Source of the DNA: Actinomycetospora lutea
GTDB taxonomy: Bacteria; Actinomycetota; Actinomycetes; Mycobacteriales; Pseudonocardiaceae
Reading direction: 5' to 3'
Length of the DNA: 64,000 nucleotides
Assembly (NCBI RefSeq): GCF_028737205.1
Contig: NZ_JAQZAL010000012.1
Span: forward strand, 1-64,000
A program made the translations under genes and the position numbers. This document shows positions 5,164 through 63,008 of the stretch, piece after piece. The notes under the pieces are model-generated. The model worked only from the letters and a program-made list of their open reading frames with translations. It was not told the DNA's origin and did no database searches. Position 1 is the first letter of the stretch; each line of letters begins with the position of its first letter.

Positions 5164-5666
5164 GCGCGGCCGAGGTCCCCGACGCCGAGGTGCGTGTCCG
5201 CCGGGCCGGCACCACGGACGGCGACGCGGTCGCCGCATTGCGCCGGGCCTGGGTCGAGCAGCGCGGCCGGATCGCGCCCGGCGCCGACCCGGGTTTCGAG
5301 CACGGGTTCGCCACCTGGTGGCGCGCCGAGCTCTCGCACCACGCGGTGTGGGTCGCCGAGGCGATGCACGGTGCGCAGTGGCGGGCCGTCGGGTCGCTCG
5401 ACGTCGCCGAGGTGGCCGCCATGCCGGCGCCCGGGCGGCCGGGGGAGCGGTGGGGCTACGTCGGCAGCCTCGTCGCGCTCGGGGCCGCGCCGCGCGGCGT
5501 GCCCCGCAGGCTCCTGGGCGCCGCGGTGACCCACGCGCGCGAGCGCGGGCTGGTCCGCCTGGTGCTGCGCCCGTCGGCCTCGGGGGCGGCCTTCTACCGC
5601 GCGGCGGGGTTCCGCCCGGCCGGCGAGGAGATGATGGTGCTGTCGACCGGTGGAGGGGGAGCGTGA
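5160..5666 (+). CDS. GNAT family N-acetyltransferase
   Basis: 168 residues starting at GTG 5160, overlapping the radical SAM stop by 4 bp. The N-terminus VRVRRAGTTDGDAVAAL and the C-terminal LVRLVLRPSASGAAFYRAAGF match the first and last strands of the GNAT fold. The acetyl-CoA pyrophosphate loop is unusual: the RxxGxG/A segment is replaced by GAAPRGVPRRLLGAAVTHA. Coupling on both sides (its stop overlaps the next ATG) places it inside the radical SAM/DUF2344 operon. The acceptor substrate is unknown. Confidence 0.75.
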   Translation: MSAAEVPDAEVRVRRAGTTDGDAVAALRRAWVEQRGRIAPGADPGFEHGFATWWRAELSHHAVWVAEAMHGAQWRAVGSLDVAEVAAMPAPGRPGERWGYVGSLVALGAAPRGVPRRLLGAAVTHARERGLVRLVLRPSASGAAFYRAAGFRPAGEEMMVLSTGGGGA

Positions 5667-6496
5667 TGGCGGGGGAGACGGAGCAGAAGGGAGCTCGCCC
5701 GGGTCGGGGCACCAAGCCCGGGGAGGCGGCGCACCCGTCCGCGCCGACGGTGGCGAAGCTGCGGATGCAGTTCGCCAAGCGCGGGCGCGCCCGCTTCAGC
5801 TCGCACCGTGATGTCGCGCGGACGATGGAGTGGACGCTGCGCCGCGCCGGGGTGCCGGTGTCCCTGTCGCACGGCTTCAGCCCGCACCCGCGGCTCTCGT
5901 GGATCGGGGCCGCCCCGACGGGCGCCGCCAGCGAGGCCGAGTACGTCGAGATCGGCGTCACCGAGCACCTCGACCCCGCCCTCGTCGCGCGCGAGGTCGA
6001 CGCGGTGCTCCCCGAGGGGATCGCCGTGGTCGAGGTGGTGGTCGCCGGTCCCGGGGCGCTCGCCGACCGGATCGACGCGAGCCGTTGGGAGATCGAGACC
6101 CCCGGCGTGGGCGACGAGGAGCTCGCCCGCGCCATCGAGGCGTTCCTCGCCGCCCCGGAGGTGTCGGTGGAGCGGGTCACCAAGAACGGTCCCAAGCCGC
6201 TGGACGTGCGAGCGGCCGTCGCCGAACTCCGTCTTTCGCTCACCCGGACGGACGAACCGGCGAGCCCGGACCGGGAGGACCGTGCACGAGCGGCGACGTG
6301 TGGGAGACTGGCGGCGGTCGTACGGCACACCACGCCGGCCGCACGACCCGACGACGTGTGCAGTGCCCTCCGTGCCGTCGCCGGTCTCGAGTTCCCGGAG
6401 CCCGTCAGGGCCACCCGGTGGGCCCAGGGTCGGCTCGACGATCGCGGAGAGCTGATCGACCCGCTCGCGGCGGACCGCGCGGCCACCCCCGCGTAG
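5666..6496 (+). CDS. TIGR03936-family DUF2344 domain protein
   Basis: 276 residues starting at ATG 5666 (GTG 5663 is also in frame). The conserved core begins LRMQFAKRGRARFSSHRDVA and continues with SLSHGFSPHPRLSW, the hallmark of TIGR03936/DUF2344. This family is encoded with, or fused to, TIGR03960 radical SAM proteins and is thought to act with them. The first 30 residues are Gly/Lys-rich and contain copy 2 of the dispersed 28-bp repeat. Function is unknown; partnership with the radical SAM protein is inferred from pairing. Confidence 0.85.
   Translation: MAGETEQKGARPGRGTKPGEAAHPSAPTVAKLRMQFAKRGRARFSSHRDVARTMEWTLRRAGVPVSLSHGFSPHPRLSWIGAAPTGAASEAEYVEIGVTEHLDPALVAREVDAVLPEGIAVVEVVVAGPGALADRIDASRWEIETPGVGDEELARAIEAFLAAPEVSVERVTKNGPKPLDVRAAVAELRLSLTRTDEPASPDREDRARAATCGRLAAVVRHTTPAARPDDVCSALRAVAGLEFPEPVRATRWAQGRLDDRGELIDPLAADRAATPA
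5673..5700 (+). repeat. 28-bp dispersed repeat, copy 2
   Basis: Begins GGGAGACGGAGC and ends GGAGCTCGCCC. It lies two codons after the ATG of the DUF2344 gene, in the same position relative to a coupled start as copies 1 and 4. Confidence 0.55.
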
Positions 6497-48734: not shown

Positions 48735-49517
48735 TCAGCCCTCCGGGACCCAGGAGGGCGCGCGCTTCTCGGCGAACGCCGCCATGCCCTCCTGGCCCTC
48801 CTCGGAGGCGAAGAACTCCGACGACAGCGCGAGCATGGCCTCGAGGTCCTGCTGGAGCTGCTCGCCACGGTCACGGCGCAGCATCGCCTTCGTGGCGGCG
48901 AGGGCGTTCGGGCCCCCGCGGGCGAGCATCGCGGTGTACCGGGCGACCTCGGCGTCGAGCCCGTCGGCGTCGACCGCGCTGTTGATCAGCCCGACGGCGG
49001 CGGCGCGGTCGGCGTCGAAGGTCTCGCCGGTGAGCATCAGCTCGTGCGCGGCGCGGGGGAGCAGCCGGGGGAGCACGGTCGCCGAGATCACCGCCGGAAC
49101 GACGCCGATGCGCACCTCGCTGAAGGCGAACGTCGCCTCCCGCGCGGCGACGGCGATGTCACACGCCGAGACGAGGCCGACCCCGCCCGCCCGCGCCGGT
49201 CCGGCCAGGCGCGCGACGACGGGCTTGTCGGAGTACCAGAGCGCGGTGAGGATCGCCGGGAACTCGTTGACGCCCTGGTCCGACGAGCCGGCGCCGCGCG
49301 ACTCGCGCAGGTCCATGCCGGAGCAGAACACCGGCCCGGTGTGCGTCAGCACGATCACGCGCACGGCCTCGTCGTCGACGGCCGCGTCGAGGTGTGCCGA
49401 CAGCTCGCGGCGCAGCTGCGCGGAGAGCGCGTTGCGGTTGCGCGGCGAGTCGAGCGTGATCGTCGCGGTGCCGCCGGTGACGTCGAGGTGCACCAGTTCG
49501 CCGGTGTCCGGGTCCAT
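48735..49517 (-). CDS. enoyl-CoA hydratase/isomerase family protein
   Basis: 260 residues from ATG 49517 (GTG 49526 also possible; neither has a clear ribosome site). The crotonase fold is shown by VFCSGMDLRES, AGPARAGGVGLVSACDIAVA and ATFAFSEVRIGVVPAVIS. The two catalytic Glu positions of classical hydratases (GGGxE and PEI) appear as AGGVG and VRI, while SEVRIG is kept. This places it with the methylglutaconyl-CoA-hydratase-like branch or an isomerase rather than classical hydratase. Minus-strand group with the next two genes. Confidence 0.8.
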   Translation of the reverse strand: MDPDTGELVHLDVTGGTATITLDSPRNRNALSAQLRRELSAHLDAAVDDEAVRVIVLTHTGPVFCSGMDLRESRGAGSSDQGVNEFPAILTALWYSDKPVVARLAGPARAGGVGLVSACDIAVAAREATFAFSEVRIGVVPAVISATVLPRLLPRAAHELMLTGETFDADRAAAVGLINSAVDADGLDAEVARYTAMLARGGPNALAATKAMLRRDRGEQLQQDLEAMLALSSEFFASEEGQEGMAAFAEKRAPSWVPEG

Positions 49518-49542
49518 GACCGTCACTGTGACACGGGGCGGA

Positions 49543-50541: not shown

Positions 50542-50608
50542 CCTCGCCACGGGGACGATCCTGCCGCGCGTCGGGCGCCCGTCAACGTGTGGACGCGCGT
50601 CCGCCCCG

Positions 50609-51382: not shown

Positions 51383-51496
51383 GCCCGTCGACGCTAGGCA
51401 GGCGACGGGCCCTCCGGGGCCGTGTTCGCGGCCGGCGGACGATCGGGCTCCGGTCCCCAGCACTCCTCCGGACCCGGCCGCTGCGCTGAGCCCACC

Positions 51497-52834
51497 TCAC
51501 CGCGACGCCGCGACCACCGACGTCTCGACGTCGTCGGTGAGCGACCGGTTCCTGGTCTCGGGCAGGACGCGGACCAGGACGAGGCCCACGACCAGCGCGA
51601 TCACCGCCAGGTAGAGCGCGGAGGCGACGGCGCTGCCGACGGCGCTGCCCGCCGAGGAGGCGAGTGCGGCCGCGACGAGGGGCGCCGTCCCCGCGACCGG
51701 ACCGACTCCCAGGCTGAACGCCACGGCCGCGCCGCTGGAGCGGGTGCGGGCCGGGAAGAGCTCGACCAGCACGATCGAGGACATCACGTTGAGGCCCGAC
51801 TGCGGGATCGCGAACAGGACCATGCCGACCAGCGCGAGCCACGCCGACCCGGACCCGATGAGCAACAGCACCGGGATCGCGAGCACCGCGTGAGCGAGCG
51901 CGGCGCCGATGTACACCGGACGCCGGCCGATCCGATCGGAGACCCACCCGGCGAGCGGGCAGAGCGCGCTGTAGAAGACCATCGCGACCGAGGTGACGAC
52001 GAGTGCGGTGTGGCGGTCGCCCCCGACCGACATGGCGTTCGCGAAGTAGGTCGCGAGGTAGTAGAAGCCGACCCCGGTCACCGAGGTGCACGCGAACGCC
52101 ACGAACATGGCGGGCCGCTCGGTGCGCCAGGCGTCGCGCAGGGGAGTGGCCGACACCTCGTCCTGCTCGCGGAGCTCGCGGTACACCGGCGTCTCGTCGA
52201 GCTTCGAGCGCAGGTAGAACCCGACGAGCCCGAGCGGGGCGGCCGCCAGGAACGGCAGTCGCCAGCCCCAGGCCTGCATCGACGCGGGGTCGAGCACCGT
52301 CTCCAGCACGAGCACCGCCACGACGCCCACGACGATGGCCAGCCCGGCGGAGGCCGAGATGAGGGCGGCACGGGCCCCGCGTCGGCCTGCCGGTGCGTAC
52401 TCGGCGAGGAAGGCCGACGCGCTCGTCCACTCACCACCGGCGGAGAGCCCCTGGACCGAGCGCAGCAGCACGAGCAGGGCCGGGGCCCAGAAGCCGATGG
52501 CGGCGTAGGACGGCAGCAGGCCGATCAGCGTCGTGGCCCCGCTGATGCCCAGCACCGCGGCGGACAGCGCCACCCGCCGCCCGAGCCGGTCGCCGATCGA
52601 GCCCAGCAGGGCACCCCCGAGGGGGCGGAACACGTACGCGACACCGAAGACGGCGAGCGAGGCCAGCAACGAACCGACCGCGTCGCCGGACGGGAAGAAG
52701 ACCTTCCCGAGGGTCACGGCGACCGCACCGTAGACGGCGAAGTCGAACCACTCGGTGAAGTTGCCGATGAGGGTCGCGGCGACGACCCGGCGGGGCACGG
52801 CGGAGGCGGGGGAGGAGGTCATCGGCGTGCTCAC
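51497..52834 (-). CDS. MHS-family MFS transporter
   Basis: 445 residues from GTG 52834, overlapping the stop of the alcohol dehydrogenase by 4 bp. There are twelve hydrophobic helices. GNFTEWFDFAVYGAVAVTLG near the N-terminus and GDRLGRRVAL in loop 2-3 are typical of the metabolite:H+ symporter (ProP/ShiA-like) group. It presumably imports the substrate of the downstream pathway. It is co-transcribed with the dehydrogenase from the promoter near 54010, which carries operator 1. Confidence 0.87.
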   Translation of the reverse strand: MSTPMTSSPASAVPRRVVAATLIGNFTEWFDFAVYGAVAVTLGKVFFPSGDAVGSLLASLAVFGVAYVFRPLGGALLGSIGDRLGRRVALSAAVLGISGATTLIGLLPSYAAIGFWAPALLVLLRSVQGLSAGGEWTSASAFLAEYAPAGRRGARAALISASAGLAIVVGVVAVLVLETVLDPASMQAWGWRLPFLAAAPLGLVGFYLRSKLDETPVYRELREQDEVSATPLRDAWRTERPAMFVAFACTSVTGVGFYYLATYFANAMSVGGDRHTALVVTSVAMVFYSALCPLAGWVSDRIGRRPVYIGAALAHAVLAIPVLLLIGSGSAWLALVGMVLFAIPQSGLNVMSSIVLVELFPARTRSSGAAVAFSLGVGPVAGTAPLVAAALASSAGSAVGSAVASALYLAVIALVVGLVLVRVLPETRNRSLTDDVETSVVAASR

Positions 52835-53946
52835 TTCGTGTGGTCGATGACGCCGCGAATGATCTTGCCGTCGCGAAGGTCCTGGTAGCCCTCGTTGATC
52901 TCGTCGAGGCTGTAGCGCTGGGTGATGAGCTCGTCGAGCTTGAGCTGACCCGCGTCGTAGAGCCGCAGCATGCGGACGATGTCGTACTGCGGGTTGGACG
53001 AGCCGAAGAGCGTGCCCTTGATCGTCTTCTGGTGGAACACCATCTCCGAGCCCGAGACGTGCACGGTGAGATCGTTCGGGTTCGCGACGCCGGTGACGAC
53101 CACGGTGCTGCCCTTGCCGATGACGGCGAAGGCGTCGCTGATGACCTGCTCGGTCATCACGCCGACGACGCAGATGGCCTGGTCGGCACCCTCACCCCAG
53201 GTCAGCTGGTGGGTGGCCTGCGCGGCCTCCGCCGCCGTGGCGAAGACGTGGGTGGCGCCGAACTCCAGGGCCGTGTCGCGCTTGAACGCGACCGGGTCCA
53301 CGCCGACGACGTACTTCGCGCCGGCGTGGGCCGCGCCCTGCACGGCGTTCATCCCGACCCCGCCGAGGCCGTAGATCACCACTGTGTCCCCGGCGCGGAC
53401 GCCGCCCGCGTTGACGGCGCTGCCCCACCCGGTCGGGACCCCGCAGCCGACGAGCACCGCCTTGTCGAGCGGCAGCCAGTCGTCGACCTTGACGCACGAG
53501 AACTCGTGGACCGTGGCGTGTTCGGCGAAGGCGCCCAGCATGCACAGGGCGCCGATGTCGCCGAGCTCGTCGTCGTGGGCGCGGAAGGTGCCGTCGGGCA
53601 TCGAGCCCTCGAGGATGGTCGCCCCGGCGTTGCAGAGGTTCTGCTTGCCGGTGGAGCAGTACCGGCACGTCCCGCAGGACGGGGTGAAGCTGCAGACCAC
53701 GTGGTCGCCCGGCTGCACGCGGGTGACGCCCGGACCGACCCGCTCGACGACGCCGGCGGCCTCGTGGCCACCGATGATCGGGAACCGGACGATGTTGTCT
53801 CCGTCGACCATGTGCAGGTCGGAGTGGCACAGCCCGGCCGCCGACATCCGCATCAGGACCTCGCCGGCGCGGGGTTCGTCGAGCTCGATCTCGCGGATCT
53901 GGAAGGGCTGGTGATAGCCGGTGAGGACGGCGGCGCGTGTCTTCAT
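52831..53946 (-). CDS. NDMA-dependent-type zinc alcohol dehydrogenase
   Basis: 371 residues. Catalytic zinc ligands in GLCHSDLHMVDG and GGHEAAGVVERVG, structural zinc cluster SCGTCRYCSTGKQNLC, then LVGCGVPTGWGSAV and the Rossmann loop VIYGLGGVGMNAVQGAA. The sequence pattern is that of the actinobacterial NDMA-dependent alcohol dehydrogenases. Their bound nicotinamide does not exchange freely and is thought to be reoxidised through mycofactocin. No mycofactocin gene lies in the window. Oxidation of a primary alcohol to an aldehyde is the likely reaction. Confidence 0.88.
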   Translation of the reverse strand: MKTRAAVLTGYHQPFQIREIELDEPRAGEVLMRMSAAGLCHSDLHMVDGDNIVRFPIIGGHEAAGVVERVGPGVTRVQPGDHVVCSFTPSCGTCRYCSTGKQNLCNAGATILEGSMPDGTFRAHDDELGDIGALCMLGAFAEHATVHEFSCVKVDDWLPLDKAVLVGCGVPTGWGSAVNAGGVRAGDTVVIYGLGGVGMNAVQGAAHAGAKYVVGVDPVAFKRDTALEFGATHVFATAAEAAQATHQLTWGEGADQAICVVGVMTEQVISDAFAVIGKGSTVVVTGVANPNDLTVHVSGSEMVFHQKTIKGTLFGSSNPQYDIVRMLRLYDAGQLKLDELITQRYSLDEINEGYQDLRDGKIIRGVIDHTK

Positions 53947-54000
53947 GGGGCGCTCCCTGGAACGGAGGTCGACGGTGACACCGAGGACGCGGTGACGGCC

Positions 54001-54018
54001 AATATTTGATACAAAAAC
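54001..54018. promoter_or_regulatory. GntR-type operator 1 (dehydrogenase/transporter promoter)
   Basis: On the minus strand this reads GTTTTTGTATCAAATATT, sharing TTGTATCAAA with operators 2 and 3. It lies 55-72 bases upstream of the dehydrogenase start. AT-rich sequence of this kind stands out sharply in the local GC background. Confidence 0.65.
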
Positions 54019-54132
54019 ATGAGGAGAACGGTGAACACAAGCCCGCCGTCCTGGTCGTGGTCTGCACGTCCCAGCGGCTTAGCCTCGCCGAACCGGACGG
54101 CCGGGGCGTTGACGCGCACGCCAAGAACCTGC

Positions 54133-54150
54133 ATCTTGTATCAAACATTG
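54133..54150. promoter_or_regulatory. GntR-type operator 2 (DUF35/thiolase operon promoter)
   Basis: ATCTTGTATCAAACATTG, 30-47 bases before ATG 54180. The core TGTATCAAACA is an imperfect palindrome, as for FadR/FCD-type GntR proteins. It is 131 bases from operator 1 in the same divergent region. Confidence 0.7.
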
Positions 54151-54179
54151 ACCTCTGCTCCTGGCCCTTGGAGGCGTCG

Positions 54180-54623
54180 ATGCCCTGCCCCGCGAGTCCC
54201 CCGGGCGATCCGCAGCACGTCGCTCGCCCGTTCCGTGAAGGGCTGCTGTCCCTCGATCCGCCGCATCTGATCGGCGCGCGGTGCGGCGCTTGCGGTGTCA
54301 CGACGTTCCCCGCCCGCGACGTCTGCCCGTCCTGCCGCGCCGAGGACGCCCCCGCACCCACCGCGCTCTCGACCGAGGGGCGGGTGCACTCGTTCACCGT
54401 GGTGCGTCAGGCGCCGGCCGGGACTCCGGTGCCGTACGTCCTGGCCTGGATCGACCTGCCCGCCGACGACGTCCGGCTGATGGCCCAGGTCGTGGGGCCG
54501 GCGCCCGAGGACGTCGTGCTCGGCCTGCCGGTGACCCTCGAGCTCGTCCCGTTCGGGACCGGCGACGATGGTGTCGAGCTGCTCGGACACCGCTTCCGCG
54601 CGACGCAGGAGGCTCCGGCATGA
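54180..54623 (+). CDS. DUF35 Zn-ribbon/OB-fold protein (thiolase partner 1)
   Basis: 147 residues from ATG 54180 with GGAGG 5 bases upstream. The N-terminal rubredoxin-like zinc ribbon is ARCGACGVTTFPARDVCPSC (about 36-55). The OB fold follows (GRVHSFTVVRQAPAGTPVPY, PVTLELVPFG). DUF35 proteins bind and activate thiolase-like enzymes such as SCP-x/Ltp proteins. ATGA overlap with the thiolase supports a complex. First gene of an operon under operator 2. Confidence 0.88.
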   Translation: MPCPASPPGDPQHVARPFREGLLSLDPPHLIGARCGACGVTTFPARDVCPSCRAEDAPAPTALSTEGRVHSFTVVRQAPAGTPVPYVLAWIDLPADDVRLMAQVVGPAPEDVVLGLPVTLELVPFGTGDDGVELLGHRFRATQEAPA

Positions 54624-55774
54624 CCCTGGCCCCCGCCCACGTGGCCGGCGTCGGCATGGTCCGCTTCGGCAAGTACCCCGCCGACGTCACCCTCGAGCAC
54701 CTCGCCGTCGGCGCGGCCCGCCGCGCCCTCGGCGACGCCGGCGCGCCGCGGACCGCGGTCGACGGGCTCTACGTCGGCCACGTCTTCGGCGGTCCGGTCG
54801 CGGGGCAGCGGATCGCCGCCCGTCTCGGCATCGACGGCCTGCCCGTCTCCAACCACGAGAACTACTGCGCCAGCGGGGCGACCGCGCTCCGCGAGGCCTG
54901 GGTCGCGTTGGCGGCGGGCCTGCACGACGTGGTCCTGGTGGTCGGCGTCGAGAAGATGACCGACCGTGTCGCCGGCGGCGTCCGGCCCGACCCGGGCGAC
55001 CTCGACGCGGCGGTCGGCTACGTCATGGCTGCCGGACACGCGATGAGCGCCCGCCGCTACATGGCCGACCACGGCGCGACCCGCGAGCAGGTCGCGGCCG
55101 TCGCGGTGAAGAACCACGCCCACTCGGTGCACAACCCGTACGCGCAGTACCAACGGCCGATCACCCTCGAGCAGGTGCTCGGCGCCCGCCCGATCGCCGA
55201 GCCGCTCGGCCTGCTCGACTGCAGCCCCATCTCCGACGGCGCCGCGGCGGTGCTGCTGGCCGGCCCGGCCGGGCTGCGCCGCCTCGGCATCGACGATCCC
55301 GTGCCGCGGGTGCTCGGCGTCGGCCTGGTCAGCGGGTCGGTGCAGAGCGGCACCGGTGACCTCAACGCGGAGGAGGTCTCGCGACGCGCCGGCGCGGAGG
55401 CCTGGAAGCTCTCCGGGGTCGGCCCCGAGGACCTCGACCTGGTCGAGATGCACGACTGCTTCACCATCGCGGAGATCGTGCGCCTGGAGGGGCTCGGCCT
55501 GCTCCCGCACGGCGGAGGGGCCGCCCTGACCGCCGAGGGGCACACCACGCTGGGCGGCCGGCTGCCGGTCAACCCGAGCGGGGGGCTGCTGTCCCGCGGC
55601 CACCCGGTCGGAGCCACCGGCGCCGCCCAGGTCTGCGAGCTGACCTGGCAGCTGCGCGGCGTCGCCGGCGGGCGGCAGGTCGACGGCGCCCGGACCGGGC
55701 TGGCCTACTGCAAGGGCGGCACCGTGAACGGCACGGACGGCGGGTCGGTCACCACGGTGGTGATGGCCCGATGA
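54620..55774 (+). CDS. thiolase / SCP-x-type acetyl-CoA acyltransferase
   Basis: 384 residues. The nucleophilic Cys83 is in HENYCASGATAL, HDCFTIAEIV follows, and the C-terminal catalytic block is GGLLSRGHPVGATGAAQ. All thiolase residues are present, so it is probably an active 3-oxoacyl-CoA thiolase. Pairing with DUF35 is typical of the SCP-x/lipid-transfer-protein branch, which handles branched or sterol side-chain acyl-CoAs. Coupled to its neighbours by ATGA overlaps on both sides. Confidence 0.87.
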   Translation: MTLAPAHVAGVGMVRFGKYPADVTLEHLAVGAARRALGDAGAPRTAVDGLYVGHVFGGPVAGQRIAARLGIDGLPVSNHENYCASGATALREAWVALAAGLHDVVLVVGVEKMTDRVAGGVRPDPGDLDAAVGYVMAAGHAMSARRYMADHGATREQVAAVAVKNHAHSVHNPYAQYQRPITLEQVLGARPIAEPLGLLDCSPISDGAAAVLLAGPAGLRRLGIDDPVPRVLGVGLVSGSVQSGTGDLNAEEVSRRAGAEAWKLSGVGPEDLDLVEMHDCFTIAEIVRLEGLGLLPHGGGAALTAEGHTTLGGRLPVNPSGGLLSRGHPVGATGAAQVCELTWQLRGVAGGRQVDGARTGLAYCKGGTVNGTDGGSVTTVVMAR

Positions 55775-56286
55775 GCACCCCCGTCGTCGAGGTCGCCGTA
55801 CGCGGCGAGGGCAGCGTCCTGTCCGCGGTCCGGGCCGCGCTCTCGACCGTGCGCCCGGCGGCCCCGGCCGCGGTCGTGGTCCCCGCCGTGCCCGGCCCCG
55901 GACCGCTCGCCGAGCTGGGTGACGACCGGCTCGACGCGCTGGTCGGCGACACGCTCGACGCGGTGCTCGCCGATGTCCGGGCCACGCTCGGGCAGCCGCT
56001 GGACCGCCTGGTGTTCGTGCTCCCGCACGCCCCGCTGATGGGCGTCGCCGACGGCGTCGCCGCCTCCGCGGTGGCCCACGGCGTGCTGTCGATGGCGCGG
56101 ACGCTCGCGATCGAGCTGGCCCGCGACGGCGTCACCGTCAACGTCGTCGCGGCCGACGTGGACGCCCCCGCTCCCGGTGCGCTGGCCGCTCAGCTCGGCG
56201 CGCTGCTGGGCGCCGGCGGCGAGGCCATCACCGGGCAGGAGATCTACCTGACCGCGGGCACCGACCTGGGGAGGGCGCGGCCGTGA
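55771..56286 (+). CDS. degenerate short-chain dehydrogenase paralogue (likely non-catalytic)
   Basis: 171 residues, much shorter than an SDR. The C-terminal two thirds align with SDRs: SMARTLAIELARDGVTVNVVA corresponds to RSLALELGRHGITVNAVAPG of the next gene. The N-terminal TGxxxGIG cofactor loop is missing. The catalytic Tyr and Lys of YSTAK are both Ala in the aligned ASAVA. It is coupled to the thiolase and to the intact SDR by 4-bp overlaps. A structural or regulatory partner of the intact SDR is the simplest reading. Confidence 0.7.
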   Translation: MSTPVVEVAVRGEGSVLSAVRAALSTVRPAAPAAVVVPAVPGPGPLAELGDDRLDALVGDTLDAVLADVRATLGQPLDRLVFVLPHAPLMGVADGVAASAVAHGVLSMARTLAIELARDGVTVNVVAADVDAPAPGALAAQLGALLGAGGEAITGQEIYLTAGTDLGRARP

Positions 56287-57023
56287 CGACCACGACGCGG
56301 ACGGCACTGGTCACCGGCGGCGCCGGCGGCATCGGACGGGGCATCGGTGCCCGGCTGGCACGCGACGGGTTCCGCGTCCTGCTCGCCGACCGGGACGCGA
56401 CGGCGGTGCGCGAGGCCGCCGAGGCGGTCGGGGCCGAGCCCTGGGTGCTCGACGTCGCCGACCCCGACTCCCGGCGCGAGGCGGTGACCAGGACCGGCGG
56501 GTGCGACCTGCTGGTCAACTGCGCGGGTGTGCTGCGCGACGCCCGCGTGCGCCGGCTGGAACCCCCGGTGTTCCGGCGGCTGACCGAGATCAACCTCCTG
56601 GGCCCGATCGCGCTGGCGCGCCTGGTCGCACCGGACATGGCCGCGCGCGGTGCGGGGGCGATCGTCAACATCGCCTCCCGGGCGTGGCTGGGGACCTTCG
56701 GCTCGACCGCCTACTCCACCGCCAAGGGCGGGCTGGTCGGCGCCACCCGCTCGCTGGCTCTCGAGCTGGGCCGCCACGGGATCACGGTCAACGCCGTCGC
56801 GCCCGGATTCGTCGAGACACCCATGACCGAGGGCCTCCCGCCGGAGGTCCGCCGACGCACGCTCGAGGCCATCCCCGTCGGACGCGCCGGCCGCCCCGAC
56901 GACGTCGCCGACGCCGTCTCCTACCTGGCCGGCGCCGGCTACGTCACCGGGCAGGTGCTGGTCGTGTGCGGCGGGCGCAGCATCGGCGCGCCCTACGCCA
57001 CGCCCGTCGAGGAGGCATCGTGA
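56283..57023 (+). CDS. SDR family NAD(P)-dependent oxidoreductase
   Basis: 246 residues from GTG 56283. Cofactor loop TGGAGGIGRGIG (about 11-22), NCAGVL, catalytic Ser/Tyr/Lys in IASRAWLGTFGSTAYSTAKG, and NAVAPGFVETPM. It is a classical SDR resembling 3-hydroxyacyl-CoA dehydrogenases and 3-oxoacyl-ACP reductases. In this operon it probably oxidises a 3-hydroxyacyl-CoA to feed the thiolase; this is inferred. Confidence 0.88.
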   Translation: MTTTTRTALVTGGAGGIGRGIGARLARDGFRVLLADRDATAVREAAEAVGAEPWVLDVADPDSRREAVTRTGGCDLLVNCAGVLRDARVRRLEPPVFRRLTEINLLGPIALARLVAPDMAARGAGAIVNIASRAWLGTFGSTAYSTAKGGLVGATRSLALELGRHGITVNAVAPGFVETPMTEGLPPEVRRRTLEAIPVGRAGRPDDVADAVSYLAGAGYVTGQVLVVCGGRSIGAPYATPVEEAS

Positions 57024-58123
57024 CCAGAGCCGGTACGGACGGTCCCCTGGCCGGAGTCCGGGTCGTCGAGTTCGCGGGCCTCGGGCCGGGACCCTTCGCT
57101 GCGATGCTGCTGGCGGACGCCGGCGCGGACGTCGTCCGGGTCGACCGGCCGTCGGGGCCGGTCGACGGCGGGGCGCTCACCCGCGGGCGGCCGTGGCTGG
57201 GCCTGGACCTGAAGTCGGACCGCGGGCGGGACACCGCACGGGACCTGGTGCGCCGGGCCGACGTGCTCGTCGAGGGCTTCCGGCCGGGCGTCATGGAGCG
57301 CCTGGGTCTCGGCCCGCAGGAGTGCCTGGCCGAGAACCCCGGCCTGGTGTACGGCCGGATGACCGGCTGGGGCCAGGACGGGCCCCGCGCCCACCAGGCC
57401 GGCCACGACATCAACTACCTGGCGCTGACCGGGGCGCTGCGCTCGATCGCCCGCCGCGGCGAGGCACCGCTCCCGCCGCTGAACCTGGTGGGCGACTACG
57501 GCGGTGGCGGCATGCTGCTCGCCTTCGGCATCGTCACCGGGCTGCTCGAGCGCCGCACGGGAGGCCGGGGCCAGGTGGTGGACGCCGCCATGGTCGACGG
57601 CGTGAGTCTGCTGATGACCGGCATCTGGAGCCGGGCGGCGCAGGGCCGCTGGTCCGGCGAGCCGGGCACCAACGACATCGACTCCGGTGCCCCGTTCTAC
57701 GACGTCTACGCCACCGCGGACGGCGAGTACATGGCCGTCGGCAGCATCGAACCGCCGTTCTGGGCCCGGCTCCTGGACGGACTCGGGATCGACCCCGCCG
57801 GGATGCCCGACCAGTGGGACCGGCCGCGCTGGCCGCAGATGAAGGAGACGGTCGGGGCCGCGTTCGCGACACGCACCCGGGCCGCCTGGACCGAGGTCTT
57901 CGACGCCCTCGACGCGTGCGTGACCCCGGTGCTGTCGATGGCCGAGGCACCGGCCGACGCCCACCTGCACGCTCGCGGCACGCTCGTCTCCGGGCCCGGC
58001 GGGGTGCAGCCGGCCCCGGCGCCCCGGCTGGACCGGACGCCCCTGCGCACCGGCGACGCCGAGCCGTCGGCGCAGGACGTGTTGGCGCGCTGGGGCCTGC
58101 GGCAGGAGGTGCTCGCGCGGTGA
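57020..58123 (+). CDS. alpha-methylacyl-CoA racemase-type family III CoA transferase
   Basis: 367 residues from GTG 57020 after GAGGAGG. It begins LAGVRVVEFAGLGPGPFAAM, the family III CoA-transferase start. All three residues of the alpha-methylacyl-CoA racemase active site are present with the expected spacing: His129 and Asp130 in AGHDINYLALTG, Asp159 in NLVGDYGGGGM, and Glu244 in GSIEPPFWA. In the mycobacterial racemase they are His126, Asp156 and Glu241. It would convert 2R- to 2S-methylacyl-CoA so that beta-oxidation can proceed. A CoA-transferase role is the alternative. Confidence 0.82.
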   Translation: MTRAGTDGPLAGVRVVEFAGLGPGPFAAMLLADAGADVVRVDRPSGPVDGGALTRGRPWLGLDLKSDRGRDTARDLVRRADVLVEGFRPGVMERLGLGPQECLAENPGLVYGRMTGWGQDGPRAHQAGHDINYLALTGALRSIARRGEAPLPPLNLVGDYGGGGMLLAFGIVTGLLERRTGGRGQVVDAAMVDGVSLLMTGIWSRAAQGRWSGEPGTNDIDSGAPFYDVYATADGEYMAVGSIEPPFWARLLDGLGIDPAGMPDQWDRPRWPQMKETVGAAFATRTRAAWTEVFDALDACVTPVLSMAEAPADAHLHARGTLVSGPGGVQPAPAPRLDRTPLRTGDAEPSAQDVLARWGLRQEVLAR

Positions 58124-58136
58124 CCACCACCCGATG

Positions 58137-58158
58137 CGCGGTGATAGTTTATCCGCGA
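58137..58158. promoter_or_regulatory. AT-rich palindrome before the GntR gene
   Basis: GCGG-T-GATA-GTT-TATC-CGC is an imperfect palindrome 25-45 bases before GTG 58183. It does not carry the TGTATCAAA core of the other operators. It could be an autoregulatory site or the promoter. Confidence 0.3.
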
Positions 58159-58182
58159 AGGGCGGGACCAGGAGGTGCGAGC

Positions 58183-58845
58183 GTGGCTGGACGAGCCCGT
58201 CTGCAACGCCGTGCCATGGGCGTCGAGGTGGCCGAGCACATCCGGTCCATGATCTTCGACGGCCGCCTGCAGGCGGGGCAGCGCGTCCCCCAGGACGCGA
58301 TCGCCGAGGAGCTCGGGGTCAGCCGGCTGCCGGTCCGCGAGGCGCTGATCGCCCTGGAGGCGGACGGGCTGGTCGCCACGGAGGCACACCGCGGCACGTT
58401 CGTCGTGCCGATCCGCTCCGAGGACATCAGCGACCACTACCGGCTCTACGGCATGGCGCAGGGCCTGGCCGCGTCCGGGGCGGTGCGCCGGATCACCGAA
58501 CCCGTGCTGGCCAGGCTCGACGAGCTGCACGCTCGGATGTGCGAGAGCGACGACGCGGACCTGCTCCACGATCTGAACTGGGAGTTCCACTCCCTGATCA
58601 ACAAGACCGGGGGGAGCCGGCGCACCCTCTCGGTGCTGCGGCAGCTCTCGCACAACCTGCCCCGCGAGGTCTACAGCCTCCCCGCGGCCGCGGGACCGGA
58701 GGCCAACCGCGGACACGCTCGCATCCTCGCCGCCCTGCGTCGCGGGGACGAGGCGGAGGTCGACCGGGCCAACCGGGAGCACGTCGAGCACGAGGGCGAC
58801 CAGGTGGTCGCCGCGCTGAAGCGCGACGGCGTCCTCGCCGACTGA
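58183..58845 (+). CDS. GntR-family transcriptional regulator with FCD domain
   Basis: 220 residues from GTG 58183 with AGGAGG 8 bases upstream. The winged HTH (about 15-75) contains IRSMIFDGRLQAGQRVPQDA and SRLPVREALIALEADGLV. The FCD effector domain (about 85-210) has YRLYGMAQGLAAS, NWEFHSLINKTGGS and the metal-binding His region RGHARILAALRRGD. FCD regulators usually repress catabolic genes until an acid or acyl-CoA ligand binds. It lies between two arms of the cluster and probably binds operators 1-3. Confidence 0.9.
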   Translation: MAGRARLQRRAMGVEVAEHIRSMIFDGRLQAGQRVPQDAIAEELGVSRLPVREALIALEADGLVATEAHRGTFVVPIRSEDISDHYRLYGMAQGLAASGAVRRITEPVLARLDELHARMCESDDADLLHDLNWEFHSLINKTGGSRRTLSVLRQLSHNLPREVYSLPAAAGPEANRGHARILAALRRGDEAEVDRANREHVEHEGDQVVAALKRDGVLAD

Positions 58846-58873
58846 TCGCGGCGGAGCAGCGCGTGATCGCGCG

Positions 58874-58895
58874 CTCTATGTATCAAACATCAGAC
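58874..58895. promoter_or_regulatory. GntR-type operator 3 (Ltp2-like operon promoter)
   Basis: Contains ATGTATCAAACAT, sharing TGTATCAAACA with operator 2. It ends 2 bases before the AGGAGGA ribosome site of the 58908 gene, so bound repressor would block transcription initiation. Confidence 0.7.
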
Positions 58896-58907
58896 TAGGA
58901 GGACGCC

Positions 58908-60050
58908 GTGGACACCTCCGTCGCCGTCGTCGGGCTCGGCAGCACGGCCTACGGGGCCCTGGGCCGCCGCGCCGACGACCTGGCCGGCGAGGCCCTGCGT
59001 GCCGCACTCGCCGACGCCCGGCTCGTCCCGGGCGAGGTCGACGGGCTGCTCACCCACCGCGTGGACAGCTACGAGGCGCTCGCCGCGGAGCACGGCCTCG
59101 ACCCGGCCTGGACGGCCGCCCTGCCGCCGGAGGGTCGCATGACCGGCCCGGCCCTCCAGCTGGCGGCCACCGCGCTGCGGGCGGGGCAGTGCCACACCGT
59201 CGCGCTCGTGTACGGCAACGACAGCCGGACGCGGGGCGCCACCTACGGATCGGGCGGATCGGGCTCCACGGCGGCCGGGGAGGGCTACGGCACGACACCC
59301 GCGCTGCTCGCGCCGTACGGCATGACCTCGCCCGGCGCGTTCTCGGCGCTGATGCTGGCCCGCCACCGGTACCGGTACGGCACGACCGAGCGCCAGCTCG
59401 GCGCCGTCGCGACGACGTGGCGTGCCCACGCCCGGCTGAACCCGGCGGCGATGCGTCGCGACGTGCTCACCGTCGACGACTACCTCGGCGCCCGCTTCGT
59501 CGTCGAACCCCTGCGGCTGTTCGACTACTGCCAGATCAACGACGGCGGGGTCGCGGTCGTGCTCACCACCCTCGACCGGGCCCGCGACCGTCCCCACGTG
59601 CCGGTGCAGGTGCTCGGCGCCGCTCAACGCGCCCGGCTGACCGGCTCGGACCTGCCCCCGGACGACTTCTGGGCCGGCGCGCTCGGAGAGGTCGGCCGCG
59701 CCGTCGCCCGCGCGAGCGGGCGGGACCGGGACGCCGTGGACGCCCTGATGGTCTACGACAACTTCAGCCCGAACGTGCTGTTCACCCTCGAGGGGCTGGG
59801 CTGGTGCGCACCCGGCGAGGCCGGCGGGTGGGTCGAGGACGGGCACGCCGCGCTCGGGGGCACGCTGCCCTGCAACACCTCCGGCGGCCAGCTCTCGGAG
59901 GGCTACCTGCAGGGCTGGGCGCTGGTCGCCGAGGCCGTCCGCCAGCTGCGCGGCGACGGCGGAGCGCGCCAGGTCCCCGGGGCGCGCACGATCCAGTACG
60001 CCTGTGCGGCGCCGGTCACCTCGACCGTGCTCTTCGGGAGGGAGGCCTGA
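58908..60050 (+). CDS. thiolase-fold protein without catalytic Cys (Ltp2-type aldolase candidate)
   Basis: 380 residues from GTG 58908 after AGGAGGA. The thiolase fold is clear (VAVVGLGSTAYGALGRRADD, CNTSGGQLSEGYLQGWALVA). The nucleophile region reads GRMTGPALQLAATAL with no Cys, and the C-terminal GHPxGATG block is replaced by LSEGYLQG. This is the pattern of lipid-transfer-protein/Ltp2-like enzymes, which with a DUF35 partner perform retro-aldol cleavage of branched 3-hydroxyacyl-CoAs. A DUF35 gene follows in TGATG overlap. Confidence 0.82.
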   Translation: MDTSVAVVGLGSTAYGALGRRADDLAGEALRAALADARLVPGEVDGLLTHRVDSYEALAAEHGLDPAWTAALPPEGRMTGPALQLAATALRAGQCHTVALVYGNDSRTRGATYGSGGSGSTAAGEGYGTTPALLAPYGMTSPGAFSALMLARHRYRYGTTERQLGAVATTWRAHARLNPAAMRRDVLTVDDYLGARFVVEPLRLFDYCQINDGGVAVVLTTLDRARDRPHVPVQVLGAAQRARLTGSDLPPDDFWAGALGEVGRAVARASGRDRDAVDALMVYDNFSPNVLFTLEGLGWCAPGEAGGWVEDGHAALGGTLPCNTSGGQLSEGYLQGWALVAEAVRQLRGDGGARQVPGARTIQYACAAPVTSTVLFGREA

Positions 60051-60439
60051 TGCACGTCTCGCGGACCGTCTCCGAGCACGTCGAGGGGCTGCGCCGCGGC
60101 GAGCTGCGCGTCTCCCGTTGCGGCGCGTGCGGTGTCCCGGCCTTCCCTCCGCCACGGCTGTGCCCGCGCTGCGGTGCCGCCGACGCCGCCACCTGGTTCA
60201 CCGCTTCCGGCCGGGGCGTGCTGTGGAGCGTGGCGGTGTTCCACCGGACCTACCTGCCCGAGCACCCTGCGCCCTACCCGGTCGCGGTGGTCGAGCTGGT
60301 CGAGGGTCCCCGCCTCGTCGCCACCCTCACCGACCCCACCGTCCCGGTGGGGTGCGCCGTGATCGCGGAGATCGACGCGCGCGCCGACCCTCCGCGCATC
60401 GCCTTCCGCCCCGACGACCACGAAGGAGCAGCGAGATGA
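60050..60439 (+). CDS. DUF35 Zn-ribbon/OB-fold protein (thiolase partner 2)
   Basis: 129 residues from ATG 60050. Zinc ribbon SRCGACGVPAFPPPRLCPRC (about 22-41), then an OB fold (GRGVLWSVAVFHRTYLPEH, PYPVAVVELVEGPRLVATL). It is the obligate partner type for Ltp2-like aldolases. The TTYLPEH-like loop and overall shape differ from partner 1 at 54180, so the two are not recent duplicates. Start overlaps the preceding stop. Confidence 0.88.
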   Translation: MHVSRTVSEHVEGLRRGELRVSRCGACGVPAFPPPRLCPRCGAADAATWFTASGRGVLWSVAVFHRTYLPEHPAPYPVAVVELVEGPRLVATLTDPTVPVGCAVIAEIDARADPPRIAFRPDDHEGAAR

Positions 60440-62058
60440 TCACTGGTACCCGGCCCGCCAGGGCCACCGACCCGATCCCCGGACCGCCGGGACCGACCGT
60501 GCCCGCCGTCCTCGACGACCTCGTCGCGCGGCGACCCCACGCGGAGGCGGTGGTCGGCCCGGAGGGGCGGATCACCTGGGCCGAGCTCGGCGACCGGGCA
60601 GCCCGGTTCGCCGCCGCTCTCGCCGACGCCGGTATCGGCCGCGGGGACCGCGTGGCGGTGCTGCTGCCCAACGGGGTGCGCTGGATCGTCGCCGCGTCCG
60701 CGGTGCTGCGGGTGGGCGCGGCGGTCGTCCCGGTCAACACCTGGTACCGGGCCGCCGAGCTGGAGCACGTCCTGGGCAGCTCCGGGGTGCGGATGGTCGT
60801 CACCGACACGCGCGTGCTCGGCCGGGACACTCTGGCCGAGCTCGACGGCGCCGGCTTCGCCCGCCCCTTCCGGCCCGGAGCGGCCCCGGGTGCCGACGGC
60901 TACCTCGGTGCGCTGCTCTGGCCGGCCACGCTCGACCTCCCCTCGGCCAGGGCGCCTCGCCCGCTGCCCGCACCCGACCCGGGCGACCTCGCCCTGCTGC
61001 TGTTCACCAGCGGGAGCACGGCGCGGCCGAAGCCGGTGCCGCTGCGGCACGGGAAGCTGGTGCGCAACGGCTACGAGATCGGGCGGCGCCAGCACCTGGT
61101 GCCCGGGGACCGGCTGTGGATCGCGGCCCCGTTCTTCTTCGGGTACGGCTGCTCCAACGCGCTGCCGGTGGCCCTGACGCACGGCGTCACCCTGTGCCTG
61201 CAGGAACGCGTCGCCGGCGACGAGTCGCTGGCGTTCATCGCCCGCGAGCGCTGCACCGTCTACTACGGGCTCGGGGCCACCACCCGCAACCTGGTGGGCG
61301 CGCCGTCGTTCGGGCGCCACGACATCTCCACGCTGCGCACCGGCACCACCGGTTTCACCCCGGAGGACAAGCGCCTGGTCGTCGAGGAGCTCGGCGTCAC
61401 CGAGATCTGCAGCATGTACGGGCTCACCGAGGCCTACGGCCACTCCACCGTCTCCGACGCCCACGATGACGTCGAGGTGCGCCTGCAGACATCCGGCACC
61501 GTCGTGCCCACCCAGGAGATCCGCATCACCGACCCCGACGGCACCCCGCTGCCCCGCGGCACCACCGGCGAGATCGAGCTGCGCGGCTGCGTCATCGACG
61601 GCTACCTGGGCCCTCCGGAGCTCGACGAGGGCAGCTTCCGCACAGGCGGCTGGCTGCGCACCGGCGACCTCGGGTTCCTCGACGACGCCGAGCGGTTGCA
61701 CGTCGTCGGGCGGCGCAAGGAGATGCTGAAGGTCAAGGGGATCAACATCGCCCCGCTCGAGATCGAGGAGCTGCTCGGCGGCCATCCCGCCGTCGACCAG
61801 GCCTACGTCGTCGGCGTGCCCGGTCCCGAGGGTGACGAGCAGATGGTCGCCGCCGTCGTGCCGCGCACCGACGCGACCGACGACGCGACCGACGAGCACC
61901 TGCCGGCCGTGCTGACCGACCACGTGAAGGCCCGGGCCGCGGGGTACAAGGTGCCGTCCCGGATCGTGGTCCTCACTCAGGGCCAGCTCCCCCTGACCGA
62001 CACCGGCAAGGTCAGCAAGCGCGCCCTGCGCGACGTCCTCGCCGGTGAGCAGGGATGA
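60436..62058 (+). CDS. acyl-CoA synthetase (AMP-forming)
   Basis: 540 residues from ATG 60436, ATGA-coupled to the DUF35 gene. The P-loop motif is LLFTSGSTARPKPVPLRHG, where Pro follows the Lys in place of the usual Gly. MYGLTEAYG, TGDLGFLDDAERLHVVGRRK and the catalytic Lys in TDTGKVSKRAL are intact. It activates the free acid for the pathway. Operon position under operator 3 links it to the branched-acid cluster. Confidence 0.88.
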   Translation: MITGTRPARATDPIPGPPGPTVPAVLDDLVARRPHAEAVVGPEGRITWAELGDRAARFAAALADAGIGRGDRVAVLLPNGVRWIVAASAVLRVGAAVVPVNTWYRAAELEHVLGSSGVRMVVTDTRVLGRDTLAELDGAGFARPFRPGAAPGADGYLGALLWPATLDLPSARAPRPLPAPDPGDLALLLFTSGSTARPKPVPLRHGKLVRNGYEIGRRQHLVPGDRLWIAAPFFFGYGCSNALPVALTHGVTLCLQERVAGDESLAFIARERCTVYYGLGATTRNLVGAPSFGRHDISTLRTGTTGFTPEDKRLVVEELGVTEICSMYGLTEAYGHSTVSDAHDDVEVRLQTSGTVVPTQEIRITDPDGTPLPRGTTGEIELRGCVIDGYLGPPELDEGSFRTGGWLRTGDLGFLDDAERLHVVGRRKEMLKVKGINIAPLEIEELLGGHPAVDQAYVVGVPGPEGDEQMVAAVVPRTDATDDATDEHLPAVLTDHVKARAAGYKVPSRIVVLTQGQLPLTDTGKVSKRALRDVLAGEQG

Positions 62059-63008
62059 GCCGGATGGGCTCCCGTCTCCTCGCCGAGGGCATCGGCTTCA
62101 CCGAGGGACCCCTGTGGACCGACGACGGACGCCTGCTGGTGGTGGCCATGTCCCGCGGGCTCGTCGTGGAGATCGATCTCGAGGGTGGGGTCGTCGACGG
62201 CACCGAGGTGGGCGGCGGGCCGAACGGGCTCGCGGAGGGGCCCGACGGAATGGTCTGGGTGGCCCAGAACGGGGGGACGATGCGTCCGAGCCGTTCCCCC
62301 CGGCCGGCCGGGCCGGGGCTGCAGCGTCTCGGCCAGGGGGAGGTGCACGACGTCCCGGTCCCGGGTGCGCTCGCGCCTAACGATCTCGTCACGGGCCCGG
62401 ACGGACGCCTCTGGTTCACCGACCCCGGGCTCGCCGATGACGTCGGCCGGTTGTGCGCCCACGACCCCGTCGACGGGACGACCTCGGTGCTCCTCGACGG
62501 TCTCGTCTTCCCGAACGGGTTGGCCTTCGGGCCCGAGGGCGACGTCCTCCACCTCGCCGACACCGCGGGCGGTGTCGTCACCCGGCACCGGTGGACCGGG
62601 GAGCGGCTGGTGCCCGACGGACCGCCCGCCGTCCTGCCCGCGGGCGGGCCGGACGGTCTGGCCGTCGACGCCGACGGTCGGCTCCACGCGGCGGCACCCG
62701 CCGCCGACGCCGTGTTCGTGTTCGCCCCGGACGGACGGCTCGAGGACGAGATCGACCTCGGTGGTCCGGCCTTCCCCACCAACCTGTGCTTCGCCGGGCC
62801 GGGGCTCGACGTGCTGGTCGTGACCGCGGCGCGCGGCGGGCGGGTGCTCGTCGTCGACCGCCCCGCCGCGGCACCGCAGCGGCCGCTGACCCGCGTCGCT
62901 CACGGTTGGCGACAGCGCAGCGCCCCCACCGTGTCCAGCGCGGCGGCGAGGTCCGCGATCAGGTCGTCGGGGTCCTCGAGCCCGACCGAGAACCGCAGGT
63001 GCCCGTAG
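62055..63008 (+). CDS. SMP-30/gluconolactonase/LRE-family protein with aberrant C-terminus
   Basis: 317 residues from ATG 62055, ATGA-coupled to the synthetase. Six-bladed propeller with the metal-site residues in GFTEGPLW (Glu), LAPNDLVTGPDGRLWFTDPG (Asn) and GGPDGLAVDADG (Asp). Lactonase or related hydrolase activity is typical. The last 36 residues (from about VAHGWRQRS) are read from the antisense of the convergent PLP gene and are Ser/Arg-rich. The natural stop appears to have been lost or shifted near 62890. Confidence 0.75.
   Translation: MSRMGSRLLAEGIGFTEGPLWTDDGRLLVVAMSRGLVVEIDLEGGVVDGTEVGGGPNGLAEGPDGMVWVAQNGGTMRPSRSPRPAGPGLQRLGQGEVHDVPVPGALAPNDLVTGPDGRLWFTDPGLADDVGRLCAHDPVDGTTSVLLDGLVFPNGLAFGPEGDVLHLADTAGGVVTRHRWTGERLVPDGPPAVLPAGGPDGLAVDADGRLHAAAPAADAVFVFAPDGRLEDEIDLGGPAFPTNLCFAGPGLDVLVVTAARGGRVLVVDRPAAAPQRPLTRVAHGWRQRSAPTVSSAAARSAIRSSGSSSPTENRRCP

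Follow-up and report, generated by a model that had tools for sequence, protein, structure and literature searches.

What would a block of catabolic genes at 51,442-62,927 of a 64,000-nucleotide stretch from Actinomycetospora lutea break down, and how did it come to lie there? The stretch, called the window below, is positions 1 to 64,000 of contig C10 in a genome of 6.53 Mb and 106 contigs. The block encodes, in order, a DUF35 protein, a thiolase, a degenerate short-chain dehydrogenase/reductase (SDR) that we call SDRdeg, an active-type SDR, a CaiB-family racemase, a GntR regulator, an Ltp2-like aldolase with a second DUF35 protein, an acyl-CoA synthetase (ACS) and an SMP-30 protein. An alcohol dehydrogenase (ADH) and an MHS importer are encoded divergently. 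We propose that the block is probably a mobile catabolic island under a single regulator, whose enzymes work like BbsABCD and cleave an acyl-CoA that is alpha-substituted and carries a beta-hydroxy, later a beta-keto, group. The bbsABCD(EF) gene order is that of anaerobic benzylsuccinate (toluene) degradation. It is very likely that an alpha-branched substrate is cleaved under regulation with the help of a heteromeric SDR. A methylsuccinyl-type product is possible, with the balance slightly against it.

Families, active-site residues, gene order, borders and the operator pattern were read directly from the sequences. Every family named in an earlier sequence-only reading of this DNA gave Pfam, NCBIfam or PDB matches. 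Its gene list was essentially right, except that a 171-residue open reading frame (ORF) at 55,771-56,286 (+), part of the unit and encoding SDRdeg, had been overlooked. That reading had named a neighbourhood search for the same families as a way to refute the unit, and the search favoured genes that travel together. Aligned SDRdeg sequences, searched against 249 genomes of the family, gave 12 strong matches with E values of at most 4e-39 and a weaker one at 1.5e-17; the rest resembled ordinary SDRs. In all 12 SDRdeg-bearing genomes, SDRdeg lies in this block. The eleven other strong loci (L041-L043, L090-L097, with L092 and L093 nearly identical) share the order DUF35-thiolase-SDRdeg-SDR-CaiB-GntR-[Ltp2-DUF35]-ACS-SMP30 and a divergent ADH. 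The bracketed pair is absent in L042, L043, L090 and L091, and the CaiB gene of L091 was split into two ORFs by gene calling. Genes of relatives were called with a codon-usage script and matched with phmmer, which missed genes in lower-GC records.

A named scan gave 46 thiolase relatives, 30 of them at least 67% identical, followed by a gap down to 44%. For counting, 28 of these 30 were combined with L098 and L145, and L104 and L127, near-duplicates of L103 and L126, were omitted. Across the resulting 30 loci, SDRdeg was scored at 19, a racemase-type CaiB at 18, SMP-30 at 18, MHS at 21, ACS at 20, Ltp2 at 11, GntR at 14, ADH at 12 and aldehyde dehydrogenase (ALDH) at 16. Sixteen hand-picked paralogous thiolase loci, 43-51% identical, served as controls (L040, L044-L058). 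They had no SDRdeg, racemase-type CaiB, SMP-30, ACS, Ltp2 or GntR, and MHS, ADH and ALDH were found at 1, 3 and 1 of them, respectively. L145 has annotated CaiB, SMP-30, SDR and GntR genes, and SDRdeg by alignment; it was scored as lacking them here and in the operator count, and the counts are therefore conservative. Within the genus, 4 of 18 genomes carry the thiolase at an identity of at least 85%; 3 of the 18 are less than 85% complete.

The genes that flank the block, quinone-oxidoreductase-like and pyridoxal phosphate-enzyme genes, have close homologues near each other in 7 of the 17 other genus genomes. The distance between them is 1.6-3.8 kb in these seven relatives and 12.4 kb in the window. 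Four relatives lose homology to the window at 51,441-51,442 and three at 50,563-50,570; all seven regain it at 62,921-62,930. These borders agree with the 51,497-63,008 given by the earlier reading. The site is variable, not empty, because the relatives carry other genes there (an MFS-transporter-like gene in two genomes, by eye). Two of the seven, G005 and G011, have the island at another place. The last approximately 80 bases of the SMP-30 ORF (62,928-63,008) are backbone DNA, antisense to the next gene, so the C-terminal tail of this protein would have been made at the junction; its final residues lack a counterpart in most of four aligned relatives. No tRNA or long direct repeat was found at the island ends, and the longest common word near them was 10 bases. 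Base composition did not mark the island (74.3% vs 74.9% and 73.7% alongside). The block appears to be a mobile island that has moved between soil bacteria.

SDRdeg alone gave weak SDR matches in NCBIfam, Pfam and PDB searches. Its homologues, 165-206 residues long, occupy the place between the thiolase and SDR genes in islands of the same order. They also occur in Arthrobacter, a Micrococcales metagenome-assembled genome (MAG), two Azospirillum, Rhodococcus and a Burkholderiales MAG, and span Actinomycetota and Proteobacteria. TGxxxGxG and the catalytic Tyr and Lys are missing from all 20 aligned homologues. In the adjoining SDR, YxxxK is kept in 20 of 20; 19 sequences have SRAWLG and one has SRAFLG. 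The glycine motif stands in 19, the twentieth sequence being shortened by gene calling. SRAWLG was present in 21 of the 84 SDR-like proteins of the loci examined, namely SDRs that adjoin SDRdeg, and the alignment places it in BbsD as well. When a profile of SDRdeg was compared with the PDB, BbsC came top (1.7e-13) and BbsD second (5.6e-13), with FabG proteins close behind. BbsC is an inactive subunit. As in the bbs pathway, a motif-less SDR gene here lies between the thiolase gene and that of an active-type SDR. An AlphaFold 2 model of SDRdeg built from 19 sequences had a mean pLDDT of 88.8, with the last five residues not confident. Ahead of the long helix it has two strands; textbook SDRs have four. 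We propose that SDRdeg is the inactive partner of the active SDR in a heteromer.

SDRdeg might instead be a decaying duplicate or a functionless frame, leaving the SDR to work alone. The protein is short, has lost all catalytic motifs and evolves faster than all, or nearly all, of the genes it was compared with. In addition, 11 of the 30 thiolase loci were scored without it, though L145 among these has it by alignment. We nevertheless regard decay as very unlikely. Twelve residues are invariant over the 20 homologues in two phyla, all 20 terminate in GR-x-[RKH]-P, and SDRdeg, where found, always lies between thiolase and SDR. Five close pairs gave dN/dS ratios of 0.25-0.45 and a sixth pair gave 0.62, so the gene is constrained, though less than most neighbouring genes.

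The active sites of the remaining core enzymes were compared with solved relatives. Thiolase C83, H278, C280 and H328, which we take to be active-site residues, are invariant in 11 sequences. The active site is complete, in agreement with the active thiolase and DUF35 partner of the sequence-only reading. The racemase residues it had picked out, His129, Asp159 and Glu244, align with positions 126, 156 and 241 of Mycobacterium tuberculosis MCR, presumably catalytic there. A CoA-transferase assignment of this CaiB protein was rejected (404 bits to MCR vs 93 and 65 bits to the benzylsuccinate CoA-transferase subunits). The Ltp2-like aldolase likewise stood, with its own DUF35 partner: Y283 and Y333 align with Y294 and Y344 of TcLtp2, which are catalytic according to PMC12329534. 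It has YDNF, with Asn replacing the oxyanion-hole His of YDHF.

Control by the GntR protein, and with it co-regulation, is predicted from the rarity of one motif and its association with the regulator gene. The earlier reading had also named missing co-regulation as a refutation, and the operator survey spoke for the unit. TTGTATCAAA occurs twice in the genome, both times between ADH and DUF35 and in opposite orientations, and the reversed pattern used as a control has no copy. Among 33 loci, 16 encode a GntR homologue scoring above 200 bits, and all of these have the motif outside called genes, vs 1 of the other 17. The single positive locus scored without GntR is L145, whose record shows a GntR gene. 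This count includes L104 and L127, so that the near-duplicates L103 and L104 both contribute. GntR may act on two or three operators. The six 4-base ATGA/GTGA overlaps between plus-strand genes (at 54,620, 55,771, 56,283, 57,020, 60,436 and 62,055) and a TGATG junction at 60,050 suggest joint transcription and translational coupling. The predicted operator makes the inducer searchable: a reporter on the 54,000-54,180 promoter could reveal the substrate without known chemistry.

As the earlier reading had stated, the block holds no dedicated acyl-CoA dehydrogenase or hydratase. An ECH_1 gene at 48,735-49,526 (-) was considered as the missing hydratase and rejected; it is backbone, common to genomes without the island at this site. 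Elsewhere in the genome, a gene for an Mcd-like dehydrogenase, one resembling methylsuccinyl-CoA dehydrogenase, and an itaconyl-CoA-hydratase-like gene lie together on contig C22 (L154, 1118-2278 and 2275-3159, overlapping). The C22 hydratase is FAS1-type, and its best solved relative is the itaconyl-CoA hydratase 8khg (206 bits). In some relatives, genes of these kinds adjoin the island. In G007 (L042), the ADH-MHS pair is followed, on the same strand, by an acyl-CoA dehydrogenase gene. One clear orthologue of it (at least 78% identical, the next at most 53%) was found in each of 8 carriers, the check covering 8 of the 12.

Genes of itaconate type flank 17 of the 30 thiolase loci vs 2 of the 16 controls (p 0.004). 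In other bacteria, the thiolase is accompanied by hydratases similar to that of C22, for which the nearest solved protein is itaconyl-CoA hydratase, by a MaoC protein matching the Pfam mesaconyl-CoA hydratase, by MmgE/PrpD proteins, and by CitE-like lyases nearest to 8khl, a bacterial acyl-CoA lyase. Pfam was run on one of seven MaoC and one of four MmgE/PrpD proteins, and the others were grouped by similarity. Three plasmid loci of related dehydrogenases were opened. Two of them (Streptomyces, Azospirillum) showed a CoA ester lyase-MaoC-dehydrogenase-CoA-transferase series, with MmgE/PrpD in one; the third (Rhodococcus BX2) had GntR and CaiB genes alone nearby. A cluster of such families is shown in PMC12290011 to be a methylsuccinate pathway with methylsuccinyl-C4-CoA dehydrogenase, and PMC9875883 adds a 2-hydroxyparaconate lactonase.

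From these data we infer the reactions, along with the SDR heteromer, GntR binding and the substrate class. MHS would import an acid, SMP-30 would open a lactone, and the NDMA-dependent ADH (plus ALDH in many relatives) would oxidise an alcohol or aldehyde group. ACS would form the CoA ester, and the AMACR-type racemase would epimerise the substituted alpha-carbon. The SDR, with SDRdeg as its inactive partner, would oxidise the beta-hydroxyl, after which cleavage by the thiolase with DUF35 would yield two products, an acyl-CoA and a short acyl-CoA. Islands that encode the Ltp2-like protein could instead make a retro-aldol cut, with an aldehyde or ketone as product. The most likely identity of the released piece is succinyl- or methylsuccinyl-C4-CoA, which could pass to the Mcd-like dehydrogenase and itaconyl-CoA-hydratase-like protein of C22. 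A BbsAB-like cut of 2-acyl-3-methylsuccinyl-CoA would yield exactly methylsuccinyl-C4-CoA, and a lactone substrate would supply the beta-hydroxyl without a dehydrogenase or hydratase. In its fullest form, which we offer as tentative and would not call probable, the island provides an aerobic route for substituted succinates or lactones (paraconic-acid-, alkylsuccinate- or butyrolactone-like). This route would begin with lactone opening, CoA activation and racemisation. A new kind of SDR heteromer, in which one partner is a minimal Rossmann-type pseudo-subunit, would then carry out the oxidation, and a BbsAB-like thiolytic step would form an acyl-CoA and methylsuccinyl-C4-CoA, the latter entering the itaconate/methylsuccinate route.

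A number of observations weigh against Bbs-type cleavage and the methylsuccinate outlet. The SDRdeg profile scores are near-equal (BbsC 54.3, BbsD 52.7 and a FabG 51.0 bits), and the single SDRdeg sequence scores actinorhodin ketoreductase (actKR) above BbsC in the PDB. With the SDRdeg model, Foldseek ranked actKR and FabG highest; BbsD came eighth, through an entry whose title is 'heterotetrameric SDR family member BbsCD', and BbsC was not among the 50 matches listed. The thiolase is slightly nearer SCP2 thiolase (249 bits) than BbsB (240 bits). The NCBIfam scores are far under the cut-offs, at 54.5 of 250 bits for BbsA and 257 of 750 bits for BbsB. Within the genus, co-occurrence of the Mcd-like gene with the island was rejected as not significant, since it is present in 4 of 4 carriers and also in 6 of 14 non-carriers (one-sided p 0.069). 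No operator copy was found at the Mcd-like locus of the window's own genome. No citramalyl-CoA lyase (CitE-like) gene stands beside the C22 pair, and the best CitE-like homologues in this genome, 42% and 46% identical, are on C10 and C33. Itaconate-type genes also occur at 2 of the 16 controls, and the 30 loci are not independent.

The sequence-only reading had favoured pristanate- or sterol-side-chain-like substrates. In that case, a 2-methyl-branched chain (of pristanate, terpenoid or side-chain type) would go through a single beta-oxidation cycle. The racemase would set the 2-methyl centre, the dehydrogenase and hydratase would come from elsewhere, the thiolase would give propionyl-CoA, and the Ltp2-like protein would cut at a tertiary beta-carbon. 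The known substrates of AMACR/MCR-type racemases, going by PDB entry names, are indeed 2-methylacyl-CoAs. The closeness of the thiolase to SCP2 thiolase and the kept Ltp2 tyrosines agree with such a route, and Azospirillum L118 has ACS, acyl-CoA dehydrogenase, DUF35, thiolase, SDRdeg and SDR in one run. However, Pfam finds thiolase-type domains alone in the thiolase, with no SCP2 domain. Ltp2 is dispensable, being absent at 19 of the 30 loci, including 4 of the 11 same-order islands. No steroid genes were seen within the block, and MHS transporters, by their family names, carry small polar acids. A 2-methyl-branched chain would also leave SMP-30 and the itaconate/mesaconate-type genes unexplained. 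We therefore find the pristanate- or sterol-like assignment unsupported, because SCP2 is missing, Ltp2 can be dispensed with, and itaconate/mesaconate/methylsuccinate genes and a lactonase-type SMP-30 recur; the 2-methyl route as a whole seems unlikely, and a substituted (methyl)succinate or lactone is preferred. In a wider sense the substrate may still be methyl-branched.

Less probable again is an aromatic substrate whose side chain has three carbons or resembles that of a lignan. Here ADH and ALDH would oxidise a gamma-alcohol, and the thiolase would cut an alpha-aryl(oxy) beta-keto acyl-CoA to aroyl-CoA, as BbsAB does with benzoylsuccinyl-CoA. The BbsAB-like architecture fits this chemistry. 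In Amycolatopsis and some Pseudonocardia, the island is joined by an aromatic-acid-type MFS gene and by an ALDH gene for which phenylacetaldehyde dehydrogenase models are the nearest, both scoring below cut-off; the two genes are, however, absent from the window and from the other Actinomycetospora islands. No aromatic ring-cleavage genes were noticed in the block, and a literature search for lignan clusters showed nothing relevant among the papers listed. We consider an aromatic substrate improbable.

The closest architectural parallel to the preferred succinate- or lactone-type island is the bbs operon. The order DUF35-thiolase-pseudo-SDR-SDR-CaiB mirrors bbsA-B-C-D-E/F, the active SDR shares SRAWLG with BbsD, and the thiolase is nearly as near BbsB as SCP2 thiolase. 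The island differs in that its CaiB protein is racemase-like and not a BbsEF-type transferase, SDRdeg is approximately 80 residues shorter than BbsC, its proteins miss the BbsA and BbsB cut-offs, and it adds GntR, MHS, ADH, SMP-30 and Ltp2-like genes while having no dehydrogenase or hydratase. The Pseudomonas/Cupriavidus itaconate/methylsuccinate cluster (ict, ich, ccl, mcd, mmgE; PMC12290011) resembles the surroundings of this thiolase in other bacteria, where Mcd-like, itaconyl-CoA-hydratase-like, CitE-like and MmgE/PrpD genes recur. None of these genes is in the window's block; its own pair is on C22, with no adjoining CitE-like gene. The steroid aldolase Ltp2-ChsH2 shares family, DUF35 partner and both catalytic tyrosines with the island aldolase, which differs in its YDNF, its free-standing DUF35 partner and its dispensability. 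The racemase keeps the catalytic positions of mycobacterial MCR and lies inside a Bbs-like operon. SCPx/pristanate-type thiolases have a fused SCP2 domain that the island thiolase lacks. Literature searches showed no relevant pathway among the papers listed, and those on the cluster's families and on pseudoenzyme SDRs gave no paper; they covered openly licensed papers, which is weak evidence of absence.

If the proposal holds, mobile islands of soil actinobacteria provide an aerobic counterpart to the Bbs-type scission of anaerobic hydrocarbon breakdown, and proteobacteria have relatives of it. The small proteins of the SDRdeg family, of which one is recorded as 'hypothetical protein', would gain a testable role as inactive SDR subunits. 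The environmental importance of methylsuccinate has been inferred from gene distribution (PMC12290011), and the island might help explain the origin of this compound.

The features of the block are collected in the table. For the first DUF35 gene, ATG 54,180 is the most likely start, closely preceded by GGAGG (alternative, TTG 54,168); for the GntR gene it is GTG 58,183 or ATG 58,216.

Table. Features of the inserted block, in window coordinates
Feature	Position	Strand	Evidence
MHS-type MFS importer	51497..52834	-	TIGR00883 341 bits (below cut-off 443); Sugar_tr/MFS_1
NDMA-dependent ADH	52831..53946	-	TIGR03989 546 bits, cut-off 440
Predicted GntR operator toward ADH-MHS	54005..54014	-	exact TTGTATCAAA; 1 of 2 genome copies
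Predicted GntR operator toward DUF35-thiolase operon	54136..54145	+	exact TTGTATCAAA
DUF35/ChsH2-type partner of thiolase (OB_A)	54180..54623	+	zf-ChsH2, OB_ChsH2_C (Pfam)
SCP2/BbsB-type thiolase	54620..55774	+	Pfam; PDB SCP2 thiolase 249 bits, BbsB 240 bits
SDRdeg, short SDR lacking TGxxxGxG, Tyr and Lys; proposed inactive partner of next gene	55771..56286	+	
Active-type SDR, BbsD-like	56283..57023	+	TGGAGGIG, SRAWLG, YSTAK kept; BbsD second-best PDB match
AMACR/MCR-type acyl-CoA racemase (CaiB family, CoA_transf_3)	57020..58123	+	MCR 404 bits; H129, D159, E244
GntR-FCD regulator	58183..58845	+	Pfam GntR + FCD; motif co-occurrence
Third predicted operator, 30 bp before Ltp2-like gene	58878..58887	+	one mismatch
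Ltp2-like retro-aldolase, variable part of island	58908..60050	+	6ok1 201 bits; Y283, Y333; YDNF
DUF35 partner of Ltp2-like protein (OB_B)	60050..60439	+	zf-ChsH2, OB_ChsH2_C
ACS	60436..62058	+	AMP-binding 248 bits
SMP-30/gluconolactonase-like protein	62055..63008	+	SGL 113 bits; final ~80 bases backbone
Inserted block, extent	51442..62927	.	homology to seven relatives breaks off and returns

Further gene contexts were observed around relatives of the thiolase. Loci L121 and L122 lie on the Variovorax sp. WS11 plasmid pVarWS11_iso. A link to isoprene was dropped because neither locus scores SDRdeg and because the isoprene-linked enoyl-CoA hydratase and acyl-CoA dehydrogenase belong, according to PMC9804861, to a chromosomal cluster. 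By eye, L121 has molybdenum-hydroxylase-like genes, and both loci have ABC transporter genes. A second thiolase context (L114, L115, L116 and L125; 70-74% identical) has the order MmgE/PrpD-ALDH-ADH-CaiB-DUF35-thiolase-MHS, with no SDRdeg and no operator. In A. straminea, a carboxymuconolactone-decarboxylase family gene directly follows SMP-30 (L099:18425-19228), and the family also occurs at L098 and L145. Between its ADH and MHS genes, the Pseudonocardia-group island L090 carries a SnoaL-like gene and an additional SDR gene (4882-5379 and 5434-6198); L100 has similar genes, as does Rhodococcus L119, where they lie on the opposite side of the SDR. The window's genome holds another DUF35-thiolase pair, 48% identical, in a cluster with SDRs and an acyl-CoA synthetase (L040, G000:C25:14000-33000).

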